A DNA stretch of 64,000 bases from Geodermatophilus obscurus (GTDB taxonomy: Bacteria > Actinomycetota > Actinomycetes > Mycobacteriales > Geodermatophilaceae), in assembly GCF_900115395.1 (NCBI RefSeq), contig NZ_FOWE01000010.1, positions 186,001-250,000 on the forward strand, in the 5' to 3' direction. Below are positions 31,988-36,408 of the stretch, piece after piece (position 1 is the first letter of the stretch; each line of letters opens with the position of its first letter). The translations under genes and the position numbers were made by a program. The notes under the pieces were generated by a model that did not search any database, was not told the DNA's origin, and saw nothing but the letters and a program-made list of their open reading frames with translations.

Positions 31988-33328
31988 TCAGCGCGGGCGG
32001 GTCTCCGGGAACAGCAGGTCGACGACGCGGGCCGCGACCGGCCGCGGCGCGTGGCCGGCGAGGTCCGGCCGGGCGTCGGCCCGGACGAGGACGTGCGCGG
32101 GCCCGCCGAGGTCGGGCACGACGAGGTCGAGGCCGACCACCGGGACGCCGAGGGCCCGGGCGGCGCGGACGGCCGCCGCGGCGACCCCGGGGTGCAGCCG
32201 GTCGGTGACGTCCTCCGCGGTCCGGCGCGCGGCGGCGACCACCTCGCCGTCGACGACGACCACCCGCACGCCCTCCCCCGCCGGATCCGCGGCCCCCGGC
32301 ACGTCGACCCCGGCGGCCGCCACGACGCGCCGGGTCACCCGCAGGTCGTCGCAGCGGCTCAGCGCCACGGCCGTGGTGAGCTCCGTCAGCGACCCGCGGG
32401 TGAGCACGCAGCGGGCGCCGAGCGTGAGCCGCAGCTCCCCGGAGGCCGTGTCGGTCACCTCGACCCCGATGCCCCGGCGCAGGGCCTCGTCGGCCAGCAC
32501 CCGGGCGCAGGGGGCGAGCCGGTCGAGTCCGGCCGGCGCGGGGACGAACAGCGGCGCGTTGACCGCGTTACGGCGCTTGACCACCAGCGCGGGCACCTGG
32601 CGGAAGCCGAGCCGCCGGTAGAGCGCGATGGCGCGCTCGTTGTCGTGCAGCACCGAGAGGTCGAGGTAGCTGCGTCCCCGGGCGAGGTAGCGCTCGGCGA
32701 GCACCCGCACCAGCGCCTCCCCGGTGCCGCGCGGCGCGTGGTCGGGGTCCGCGGCCAGGCACCACAGGCTGCTGCCGCCCTCGGGGTCACCGAACGCCCG
32801 CACGTGGTCGACGCCGGTGACCGTGCCGACGACGCGCCCGGTGCGCCGGTCCTCCGCCACCAGGTAGCGCACCGTCCGCGTCGAGTGGTCGTGCCAGACG
32901 GTCGCGCCGTCCCCGGGCACCATGCCGACCCGGCTGACGATGCGCCCCATCTCGGCGACGTCGTCCGGGCAGGCGACGGTGCGCACGAACACATCCTCGA
33001 TGAGCTCCCGACGCGGGCGGTACCGGTGCAGGTCCAGCCGGAAGGTCAGCGACGGGTCGAGGAACAGCTCGCCGGGCGCCATCCCCAGCAGCACCTGGGG
33101 GTCGCGCGGGTAGATGCAGATGTCGCGGTGGCCCTCGGCCTCCCCGCGCAGCGCCTCGACCAGCCGCTGCGGGTCGGGGAAGGTCTGCCCGAACACCAGC
33201 CGGCCCCAGCCGAGGTCGAGGACGGCCTCGGTGTCCATGCCGCGCAGCTGGTGCTCCGACGGCGGTCGCCTGGGGGTGCCGGTGATCGTCGGGACGGCCG
33301 CCAGCGACCGCGTCCTGTGGGTCCTCAC
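31988..33328 (-). CDS. GNAT acetyltransferase with decayed ATP-grasp half (NAGGN synthetase-like)
   Basis: 446 residues. Residues about 36-110 (LGWGRLVFGQTFPDPQRLV, DICIYPRDPQVLLGMAPGELFLDPS) and the GNAT core (GSSLWCLAADPDHAPRGTGEALVRVLAERYL, HDNERAIALYRRLGF) match the acetyltransferase of the N-acetylglutaminylglutamine cassette (TIGR03103/Ngg type). The C-terminal ATP-grasp opens normally (SLTELTTAVALSRCDDLRVTRRVVAAAGVDVP) but then jumps to VRVVVVDGEVVAAA, lacking the central ATP-binding subdomain, and its metal-ligand motif reads RADARP instead of the usual EANERP. The total is about 100 residues short. The partner asnO-like gene is absent. GTG 33328 keeps the N-terminal segment; ATG 33238 is an alternative. 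Confidence 0.75.
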   Translation of the reverse strand: MRTHRTRSLAAVPTITGTPRRPPSEHQLRGMDTEAVLDLGWGRLVFGQTFPDPQRLVEALRGEAEGHRDICIYPRDPQVLLGMAPGELFLDPSLTFRLDLHRYRPRRELIEDVFVRTVACPDDVAEMGRIVSRVGMVPGDGATVWHDHSTRTVRYLVAEDRRTGRVVGTVTGVDHVRAFGDPEGGSSLWCLAADPDHAPRGTGEALVRVLAERYLARGRSYLDLSVLHDNERAIALYRRLGFRQVPALVVKRRNAVNAPLFVPAPAGLDRLAPCARVLADEALRRGIGVEVTDTASGELRLTLGARCVLTRGSLTELTTAVALSRCDDLRVTRRVVAAAGVDVPGAADPAGEGVRVVVVDGEVVAAARRTAEDVTDRLHPGVAAAAVRAARALGVPVVGLDLVVPDLGGPAHVLVRADARPDLAGHAPRPVAARVVDLLFPETRPR

Positions 33329-33437: not shown

Positions 33438-34703
33438 TCAGCGCGGAGCCGCGGCCTCCGCGACGGGGATCCGCCGGGCCGGCCCGGCCGGGACGAACGC
33501 CGACGACGCCCGGAGCAGCTCGTAGAGCCCCTGGGCGACGACCGCCCACCGGCCGGCCGCCGGCTCCCCGCGCAGCCAGGTCGCCGCGGCGGTCAGGAGC
33601 TGCAGACCGGCCGACGCCTCGAGGTTGAGGTGCACCGGCAGCGGGAGGACCCGCAGCACTCCGGCCGGGTGGTCGGTGAGCAGGGTGTCGGCCAGGCCGA
33701 GCGCGCCGAAGGAGGTCAGCAGCACCCGGGTCCGCGGTCCCCACGGCCGGGTCCAGGGCACGGTCAGCAGCGCCAGCGTGGTCACCACGTCCAGGGCGGC
33801 GTGCGCCCGCGGCGGCAGCGGCCGGCGGGCGGCCAGGGGGTCACGCTGCTCCGACCGGGGGACGACGTCGTCCCCCGGGGTGCCGCGGGCGTCCAGGTCC
33901 CCGGCGAGGAACGCCGCCACCAGCCGGGCGGACACGTCCGGCGCCGACCAGTGGGCGTTGTGCGCGGCGCCCTCGATGACGACCAGCCGGCCGTCGGGCA
34001 GCAGCCGGGTCACCTGCTCGGCCCACGCGTCGTCCAGCGTCCGGTCGTGCCGGCCGCGCACCACCAGCGTGGGCGCGGCGACGTCGGGCAGCCGCCGCTC
34101 GACCGGGTCGTCCGCGCTGCGGACCAGCTGCTGCACCATCCGGGCGACGCCGGTGGACGCGTACTCCACCTGGAACAGCGCCTGGAGCGTGGGGACCTCG
34201 AAGACCATGTTCCGCAGCACCTGCGGGTACTGCTTCCACGGCCGCCGGTAGCGCGGGTCCGGGGTGGGCCCGGACAGGACCAGCCGCTCCACCCGGTCCG
34301 GGTGGTGTGCGGCGAGCTCGACGGCGACCTGCGCGCCGATGGAGTTGCCGAAGAAGCTCGCCCGGGCGATGCCGCGGGCGTCGAGCCAGTCCACCAGGTG
34401 GCCGGTCTGCGTGGCGACGTCGGGACCGCCGGGCCAGCGCAGCCCCGGGTCGCGCGGCGAGCGCCCGAACCCGGGCAGGTCGGGCGCCAGGACCTCGTGG
34501 CCCAGCGCGGCCAGCCGCCGACCCAGCGGGACGAGGTAGCGGCTGGACAGGCCCAGGCCGTGCACCAGGACGACCGGGGTCCGACTCCCGCCCGCCGCGG
34601 CGGGCCAGGTCCGGGCGTGCACCCGGGTGCCGAGGGCGGGCAGGTCGGTCCACTCGTGCCGCGGGGCGGGGCCGGGAGGGCGCAGGGAGGGCAGGGCGGG
34701 CAC
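33438..34703 (-). CDS. Alpha/beta-fold hydrolase with extra C-terminal hydrophobic domain
   Basis: 421 residues. Residues about 30-285 are an alpha/beta hydrolase: oxyanion segment VLVHGLGLSSRYL, nucleophile elbow GNSIGAQ (Ser), LVVRGRHDRTLDD (acid) and GAAHNAHWSAP (His). The remaining roughly 130 residues contain two or three hydrophobic stretches (LDVVTTLALLTVPW, VLLTSFGALGLADTLL) and look like a small membrane-associated domain not usual in the family. GTG 34703 was chosen for the CGGAG five bases upstream. It is divergent from the mannitol dehydrogenase gene. Confidence 0.85.
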   Translation of the reverse strand: MPALPSLRPPGPAPRHEWTDLPALGTRVHARTWPAAAGGSRTPVVLVHGLGLSSRYLVPLGRRLAALGHEVLAPDLPGFGRSPRDPGLRWPGGPDVATQTGHLVDWLDARGIARASFFGNSIGAQVAVELAAHHPDRVERLVLSGPTPDPRYRRPWKQYPQVLRNMVFEVPTLQALFQVEYASTGVARMVQQLVRSADDPVERRLPDVAAPTLVVRGRHDRTLDDAWAEQVTRLLPDGRLVVIEGAAHNAHWSAPDVSARLVAAFLAGDLDARGTPGDDVVPRSEQRDPLAARRPLPPRAHAALDVVTTLALLTVPWTRPWGPRTRVLLTSFGALGLADTLLTDHPAGVLRVLPLPVHLNLEASAGLQLLTAAATWLRGEPAAGRWAVVAQGLYELLRASSAFVPAGPARRIPVAEAAAPR

Positions 34704-34762
34704 GGTTGCTCCGGGAGGTCGGGCGGACCCCGCGGCTCGGGGCACCGCTCCCCTACCCGCGT

Positions 34763-34798
34763 CCGGGAGCCGCACTACATCCGGGAGTTGCACCACAT
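34763..34798. repeat. 18-bp tandem repeat in divergent promoter region
   Basis: Two adjacent 18-bp units (34763-34780 and 34781-34798), 15 of 18 bases identical, starting ccgggag and ending ccacat or ctacat. They sit between the divergent hydrolase and mannitol-dehydrogenase genes and may be regulator sites. Confidence 0.4.
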
Positions 34799-34902
34799 CC
34801 GGACGATCGCGGGTTGGAGACGCCGGCGGTGGGGCATGGGAGGGGCCGCGGCCACGGGTGAACAGCCACCCCGTCCCGCCCCTCCTCACTGAGAGTTCCC
34901 CG

Positions 34903-36408
34903 ATGACGTCTGCCCCGCCCCGGGCCGTCCCCCTGTCCGACCGGACCCTCGCCGACCTCCCGCCGGAGGTCTCCGTCCCCACCTACGACCGCGCGGCGCT
35001 GCGGCCCGGCATCGTGCACATCGGCGTCGGCGGCTTCCACCGCGCCCACCAGGCCGTCTACCTCGACGAGCTCGCCCGCCGCGGCGAGACCGGGTGGGGC
35101 GTGGTCGGCGTCGGCCTGCACAGCCGCGAGATCGGTGAGGTGCTCGCCGACCAGGACGGCCTGTGGACCGTGGTCGAGCGCGGGGCCGACGGCGACCGCG
35201 CCACCGTCGTCGGCGCGCTCACCCGGTACCTGTACGCGCCCGACGACCCCGAGGCGGTGCTCGCCGCGCTGACCGACGAGGGCACCCGCGTGGTGAGCCT
35301 GACGATCACCGGCAGCGGCTACCGGATCGACGCGCACAGCGGCGAGTTCGACGCCGAGGACCCGCACGTCGCCCGCGACCTGGAGGACGCCGGCCACCCC
35401 GAGACGGTCTTCGGCTACCTCGTCGAGGCCCTGCACCGCCGGAGGCAGGCCGGACGGGCGCCGTTCACGGTGCTGTCCTGCGACAACATGCAGTCCAACG
35501 GCGCCGCGGCCCGCACCGCGGTGGTGTCCTTCGCCCGGCTCCGGGACGACGACGGCGGTGACCTGGCCGACTGGATCGACCGGCACGTCGCGTTCCCGAG
35601 CAGCATGGTCGACCGGATCACCCCGACCACCACCCCCGAGGGCCGGGACGCCGTCGCCGCCGCGACCGGCGTCGACGACCGGTGGCCGGTGGTCACCGAG
35701 CCGTTCCGCCAGTGGGTCGTGGAGGACACCTTCTGCAACGGGCGCCCGCCGCTGGAAGAGGTCGGCGTCCGGTTCACCGACGACGTGTCGCCGTACGAGA
35801 CGGTGAAGACCCGGCTCCTCAACGCCGGGCACAGCGCCATCGCCTACCTGGGTTACCTCGCCGGGTACCGCACCACCGACGAGGTGATGGCCGACCCGGT
35901 GTTCCGCACCTTCCTCACCCGGCTGATGGCCGAGGAGATCGCGCCGCACCTGCCCGAGGTGCCGGGCGTCGACCTGGCCGGGTACCAGGCCACGCTGCTC
36001 GACCGCCTGGCCAACCCCCGGATGGCCGACCAGCTCGCGCGGCTGTCCCGCCGCGGCTCCACCAAGATCCCCAACTACCTGCTGCCGTCCGTGCGCGCCG
36101 CCCTGGAGGCCGGCACCCCGCACCGGCTGCTGTGCGTCGCGGTCGCCGGCTGGCTGCGCTTCCTGCGCGGCCACGACTACGCCGGCGAGGAGGTGCCGAT
36201 CCAGGGCCCGCGCCCGGACCTGGTGCCCCTCGCGCAGGAGGCGGGCGGCGACGCGACACCGCTGCTGTCGGAGCAGTCGGTGTTCGACCACGTCGGGCAG
36301 GACCCGCGCTTCGCCGACTGCGTGCAGGCGGCCCTCTCCGCGCTGGACCGGCAGGGGCCGCGCGAGGTCATCGAGGAGTTCCTCGGCACCCGCGGGGACG
36401 GCGCGTGA
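34903..36408 (+). CDS. Mannitol dehydrogenase family protein
   Basis: 501 residues, normal for long-chain polyol dehydrogenases. The Rossmann N-terminus reads GIVHIGVGGFHRAHQAVYLDEL; the catalytic Lys-x4-Asn-x-x-His motif is KTRLLNAGHSAIAYLGYLAGY; STKIPNYLLPSVRAAL is typical of the C-terminal domain. It oxidises mannitol or a related sugar alcohol (mannitol, arabinitol or fructuronate type) with NAD. ATG 34903 begins just before the conserved region. The stop overlaps the start of the HAD phosphatase gene by four bases (GTGA). Confidence 0.92.
   Translation: MTSAPPRAVPLSDRTLADLPPEVSVPTYDRAALRPGIVHIGVGGFHRAHQAVYLDELARRGETGWGVVGVGLHSREIGEVLADQDGLWTVVERGADGDRATVVGALTRYLYAPDDPEAVLAALTDEGTRVVSLTITGSGYRIDAHSGEFDAEDPHVARDLEDAGHPETVFGYLVEALHRRRQAGRAPFTVLSCDNMQSNGAAARTAVVSFARLRDDDGGDLADWIDRHVAFPSSMVDRITPTTTPEGRDAVAAATGVDDRWPVVTEPFRQWVVEDTFCNGRPPLEEVGVRFTDDVSPYETVKTRLLNAGHSAIAYLGYLAGYRTTDEVMADPVFRTFLTRLMAEEIAPHLPEVPGVDLAGYQATLLDRLANPRMADQLARLSRRGSTKIPNYLLPSVRAALEAGTPHRLLCVAVAGWLRFLRGHDYAGEEVPIQGPRPDLVPLAQEAGGDATPLLSEQSVFDHVGQDPRFADCVQAALSALDRQGPREVIEEFLGTRGDGA

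Follow-up and report, generated by a model that had tools for sequence, protein, structure and literature searches.

A ligase-eroded paralog of N-acetylglutaminylglutamine synthetase in Geodermatophilus obscurus as a candidate stand-alone acetyltransferase

The analysed window (64,000 nucleotides of Geodermatophilus obscurus, contig NZ_FOWE01000010.1, positions 186,001 to 250,000) harbours a paralog of the bifunctional GNAT/ATP-grasp synthetase Ngg. The acetyltransferase half of the paralog is intact and under full purifying selection, while its ligase half has been shortened by two in-frame deletions and carries an altered catalytic motif (Table 1). The explanation that we favour, with reasonable though not high confidence, is that the protein is a ligase-dead acetyltransferase which would act on its own and retain a lidless ATP-grasp core as a scaffold. 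More tentatively, it may represent a new N-acetyltransferase family, acting alone and on a changed acceptor and derived from a bifunctional peptide synthetase, in which the ligase lid and active site were excised stepwise and partly in parallel, the core being kept as a scaffold and the intermediates surviving within one genus.

An additional copy beside a complete asnO-ngg pair

NAGGN is an osmoprotectant dipeptide, and Ngg couples acetylation and peptide ligation within one chain. Glutamine is acetylated by Ngg and then joined to a second glutamine, and the product is amidated by AsnO (PMC8070244, PMC5563000). Homology of the window protein to Ngg spans its whole length, interrupted by the two missing ligase stretches, and its start region, RSLAAVPTITGTP, is aligned in the orthologues. 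In a profile search, the first 346 residues correspond to positions 1-315 of TIGR03103 (N-acetylglutaminylglutamine synthetase, equivalog), and the C-terminus matches positions 471-546 as a stretch of its own; with 485.7 bits in these two separate stretches, the whole protein falls short of the family cut-off of 569 bits. The GNAT half, including its acetyl-CoA-binding loop, is nevertheless complete, as had been predicted: it scores 43.9 bits against PF00583 (gathering threshold 20.7), and G203, E204, Y237 and the acetyl-CoA loop residues are invariant across 38 of 38 aligned proteins.

Table 1. Coordinates of the Ngg paralog, its parts and its upstream neighbour (positions within the window)
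Feature	Position	Strand	Basis or remark
Ligase-eroded Ngg (NAGG synthetase) paralog, 446 aa	31988..33328	(-)	GTG start at 33328
GNAT half (residues 30-250), intact; PRGTGEAL (199-206) and Tyr237 present	32579..33241	(-)	omega, GNAT fold match
Residues 128-131 (GRIV), at the site of canonical [N/D]-x-x-Y (helix alpha-1); acceptor-site change predicted	32936..32947	(-)	alignment, model
First ATP-grasp subdomain remnant (residues 251-349)	32282..32578	(-)	alignment, model
Deletion 1 junction, residues 349/350 (183 bp; ATP-binding lid with KPARGEQGKG gone)	32281..32282	(-)	alignment
Strand pair AGEGVRVVVVDGEVVAAA still present (residues 350-367)	32228..32281	(-)	model
Deletion 2 junction zone, residues 367-372 (219 bp total; GDG...TANLHTGG gone)	32215..32228	(-)	alignment
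C-terminal ATP-grasp core remnant (residues 372-446), last residues DLLFPETRPR	31991..32215	(-)	omega 0.13
RADARP (residues 416-421) at catalytic/metal site EANERP	32066..32083	(-)	alignment
Alpha/beta hydrolase, co-oriented, just upstream of the paralog	33438..34982	(-)	pair kept in 4/6 syntenic species

The original prediction described the gene as an orphan without its asparagine-synthetase-like partner, which holds for its surroundings only. No asnO (TIGR03104) was found in the loci of about 16-20 kb surrounding the gene and its orthologues; a profile search of the contigs, however, placed a canonical asnO of the same genome at C20:96770-98542 (966 bits), adjoined by a full-length canonical ngg at C20:98673-100316 (798.5 bits, above cut-off). 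The window gene as the sole Ngg of its genome was thus rejected, the asnO-next-door cassette being located elsewhere. Since this pair is complete on the other contig, the NAGGN pathway looks whole even with the window gene discounted; the latter is an extra paralog, at liberty to diverge, and not a partnerless substitute for Ngg.

A canonical Ngg copy is present in 25 of 26 Geodermatophilus genomes; G018 is the sole sampled genome of the genus without it, and its best asnO-like matches lie below cut-off. A second asnO above cut-off occurs in three genomes (G001:C23:156420-158189, G014:C24:330271-332040 and G021:C191:212-1981), with no second ngg listed in any of them. Separately, the canonical Ngg at G707:C5:21757-23426 is encoded as two overlapping frames, one GNAT (3-296) and one ATP-grasp (275-545), indicating gene fission or a frameshift.

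Ligase erosion among the Geodermatophilus paralogs

The segment between AAGVDVP and VRVVVVDGEV that had been reported as absent is indeed lacking: compared with full-length relatives, the window gene is shorter here by 61 codons, which comprised the lid VVVKPARGEQGKGITVGV. That account of the ATP-grasp deletion was incomplete, as a further in-frame deletion had been overlooked; it lies between VVAAA and RRTAEDVT, spans about 73 codons and takes out GDG...RRTANLHTGG. RADARP was likewise found in the alignment at the position of EANERP, as proposed. The KPARG Lys and the EANERP Glu and Asn align with conserved positions of the cyanophycin synthetase ATP-grasp domain, which we take to be its ATP and metal ligands. 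With the KPARG loop and TANLHTGG deleted and EANERP changed, the protein is hardly a functioning ligase, and ligase activity is judged very unlikely from these motifs. An assembly or sequencing error was discarded as the source of the shortened form because the double deletion recurs in the separate assembly of another species, G. saharensis.

The paralog occurs in nine of 26 Geodermatophilus genomes (G000, the window genome; G016, G. saharensis; G017, G. siccatus; other G numbers are genome labels), and a full-length relative is also present in the Blastococcus-like draft genome G062. The genus copies form a graded series. Ligase motifs are intact in the full-length copies of G017, G009 and G011; the full-length copies of G006 and G025 read AADARP and GADAQP, respectively, in place of EANERP; G024 carries deletion 1 alone; G008 carries deletion 2 but not deletion 1, together with a gap of two codons in its lid loop; and both deletions are found in G016 and in the window gene. 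These last two, from different species, are 84% identical. The catalytic Glu of EANERP is replaced (by A, G or R) in six of six orthologues at the syntenic locus and retained in G017, G009, G011 and G062. Deletion lengths in the series are 183, 219, 201, 210, 6 and 6 bp, each a multiple of three, and internal stops or frameshifts were found in none of the nine genus copies.

The ends and lengths of deletion 2 differ among the window genome (219 bp), G016 (201 bp) and G008 (210 bp), so that three or more origins are probable, the alternative being a gap that widened after an initial loss. Deletion 1 measures 183 bp in three species; nevertheless, a single origin was rejected, as monophyly of its carriers is opposed by the paralog gene tree (AU p 0.004-0.04). 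Neighbouring and canonical genes place G000 with G016, and this conflict makes the number of deletion 1 events uncertain, two or more being likely. Direct repeats as a cause of deletion 1 found weak support, the 183-bp offset ranking within the top 4 of 180 in G017, 25th in G025 and 44th in G009.

In six genomes (G000, G016, G008, G025, G024 and G006) the paralog is flanked by an oligoribonuclease-like gene (named by eye from its sequence) and a mannitol dehydrogenase, whereas the copies of G017, G009 and G011 lie at another genomic location. The co-oriented alpha/beta hydrolase adjoins the paralog in G000, G016, G008 and G025 and is reduced to traces in G024 and G006. Judged by the genes next to the paralog, G006 and G025 are sister species, yet their paralogs are only about 72% identical in the GNAT half (G006 copy, L046:7243-8991), and replacement or horizontal transfer is therefore likely at the G006 syntenic site. 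In G005, what is left of the paralog is a fragment of the C-terminal ligase region (L109:3056-4388, G005:C107; 93% identity to the G017 copy), which a deletion has fused to a frameshifted alpha/beta hydrolase of the same locus; in G015 the paralog is apparently absent at the locus. Its scattered distribution (9/26) and its complete decay in one species or more make the paralog dispensable, which weighs against the favoured explanation. Close orthologues of the mannitol dehydrogenase (window positions 34903-36396) are found only in paralog genomes, in the remnant-bearing G005, and in G015 and G009, a distribution by which the linked segment is classed as a co-inherited accessory segment.

Similar short forms were absent among the matches listed for 115 family, 399 order and 396 phylum genomes, in listings not designed to catch them. 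A literature search returned no paper on Geodermatophilus Ngg paralogs or Ngg duplication, and its match for ATP-grasp and pseudoenzyme was human TTLL12, which is unrelated.

Selection, acceptor site and alternative explanations

Selection was estimated as omega by fitting a codon model (F3x4, composite pairwise likelihood, bootstrap ranges) to the five eroding copies. As G+C-rich codon bias renders absolute values uncertain, the evidence lies in how the halves, and the copies, differ from one another. For the eroding clade versus the canonical copies, omega is 0.049 (5-95% range 0.032-0.062) against 0.038 for the GNAT half, 0.109 against 0.038 for the first ligase subdomain (linker) and 0.131 against 0.045 for the C-terminal ligase remnant. 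IQ-TREE gave 0.053 for the GNAT half. Relaxation is restricted to the ligase half and sets in between G017 and G025. Of the columns that do not vary in canonical Ngg, the paralog retains 95.5% in its GNAT half and 71% at the C-terminus. The shortened form is shared with G. saharensis; its GNAT half is under purifying selection of canonical strength, and its ligase remnant is relaxed. Because the GNAT half is under full purifying selection, the protein most likely functions as a stand-alone N-acetyltransferase.

The paralogs also depart from the canonical enzyme at the predicted acceptor site. In canonical Ngg, the motif [I/V][N/D]xxY has constant or nearly constant Asn/Asp and Tyr columns; the Tyr (position 131) is invariant in the canonical copies checked, from Pseudomonas to Actinobacteria, but is V, L or H in ten of ten paralogs, and the Asn/Asp column is changed in nine of the ten. 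In the predicted model these columns sit on helix 121-133, presumably GNAT alpha-1, close to the acceptor. The replacement of the Tyr even in paralogs with an intact ligase indicates that the acceptor change probably preceded ligase loss, and suggests a new acceptor substrate.

Purifying selection on the GNAT half is likewise consistent with an enzyme still acting on glutamine, and the strongest competing explanation, although an unlikely one, builds on this: the paralog would still acetylate glutamine, feeding N-acetylglutamine to the canonical Ngg ligase or serving as its subunit, and would thereby boost NAGGN synthesis with no change of substrate. The retained GNAT columns, the canonical-like omega and the canonical asnO-ngg pair within the same genome all agree with such a role. 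The change of the alpha-1 Tyr, otherwise invariant, in every paralog speaks against it, as does the lack of linkage to asnO at every examined locus.

Somewhat less probable again is a decaying duplicate, an incipient pseudogene whose GNAT half is as yet unhit. The ligase deletions fit this course, as do the weakly constrained C-terminus between the two doubly deleted species G000 and G016 (omega 0.22), the full decay in G005 and the apparent absence in G015. Against it, GNAT omega stays near 0.05 over five species, at 8-14% GNAT protein divergence from the window copy; every deletion is in frame and stops are absent; and the two doubly deleted copies are 88% identical in the GNAT half versus 75% at the C-terminus. 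Decay is disfavoured by GNAT selection, though it may still apply to single species. The refuting outcome envisaged in the original prediction, full-length close relatives together with relaxed selection or a recent deletion, was encountered in part: full-length copies do exist among the relatives, but the closest double-deleted copy belongs to another species, at 84% identity, and the GNAT half is unrelaxed. A non-catalytic binding or regulatory protein, sensing acetyl-CoA or a small ligand through its GNAT fold and lidless core, would suit the predicted persistence of both folds and a ligase catalytically dead by sequence, but is highly improbable, given that neither Tyr237 nor the residues of the acetyl-CoA loop vary among the 38 aligned proteins and that a regulatory context was not seen.

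An AlphaFold model built from a 38-row alignment folds both halves (mean pLDDT 85.7), although the presence of intact homologues in that alignment makes its confidence for the remnant suggestive only; a model from 12 rows was poor, with a pLDDT of about 30 in the remnant. Modelled residues 270-445 superpose on residues 162-485 of cyanophycin synthetase (Z 22.3, 2.3 A, 175 aligned), and the modelled GNAT half matches acetyl-CoA GNAT structures with Z 15-18. The model is suggestive of a clean removal of the lid subdomain by deletion 1, leaving a compact core.

The favoured history of a ligase-dead acetyltransferase would thus begin with a paralog of the bifunctional Ngg in a conserved locus without asnO, in which the acceptor-site helix of the GNAT half was presumably altered first. 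The ligase then became dispensable, with the EANERP Glu lost and the lid and TANLHTGG deleted in frame, repeatedly and by differing routes across species, while the acetyltransferase half has stayed under full purifying selection and, we infer, active. The present protein is predicted to be an acetyl-CoA-dependent N-acetyltransferase acting on an amino-acid-like substrate, possibly not glutamine any more, with the leftover ATP-grasp core, incapable of ligation, serving as a putative structural scaffold or interface only. The proposal of a stand-alone acetyltransferase on a leftover scaffold is therefore well served by the ligase dead by sequence, the constrained GNAT half with its catalytic residues retained, the predicted compact core and the changed helix residue; its further element, a new substrate, is suggested only.

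Implications and comparison with known systems

The occurrence within one genus of intact, motif-damaged, singly deleted (either deletion) and doubly deleted paralogs offers a natural dissection of the two halves of Ngg. This graded series predicts that the acetyltransferase half can function alone and, as far as the model goes, that an ATP-grasp domain may shed its lid and active site and keep its core fold. It also carries a warning for annotation, as the name "NAGGN synthetase" would pass to a protein functional in its GNAT half alone.

Compared with Ngg itself (TIGR03103; Ngg of S. meliloti and PA3460 of P. aeruginosa), the window paralog shares the GNAT plus ATP-grasp architecture, with a GNAT half 66% identical to that of the canonical copy of its own genome, and differs by its two in-frame ligase deletions, the loss of EANERP and of the helix N-x-x-Y, and the absence of an asnO neighbour. 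The full-length orphan paralogs of G017, G009 and G011 belong to the same paralog lineage (GNAT 75-89% identical), and all have the changed helix motif and lack an asnO neighbour; unlike the window paralog, they possess intact ligase motifs and occupy another genomic location. With the ATP-grasp domains of cyanophycin synthetase and GshAB (7wae, 3ln7), the remnant 270-445 shares the core (Z 22), but its lid subdomain and active-site segments are missing. Finally, stand-alone amino-acid GNATs (short ArgA, 5yge; RimI) share the GNAT fold with its acetyl-CoA site (Z about 15); in contrast to these, the window GNAT derives from a bifunctional synthetase and still carries the ligase core.
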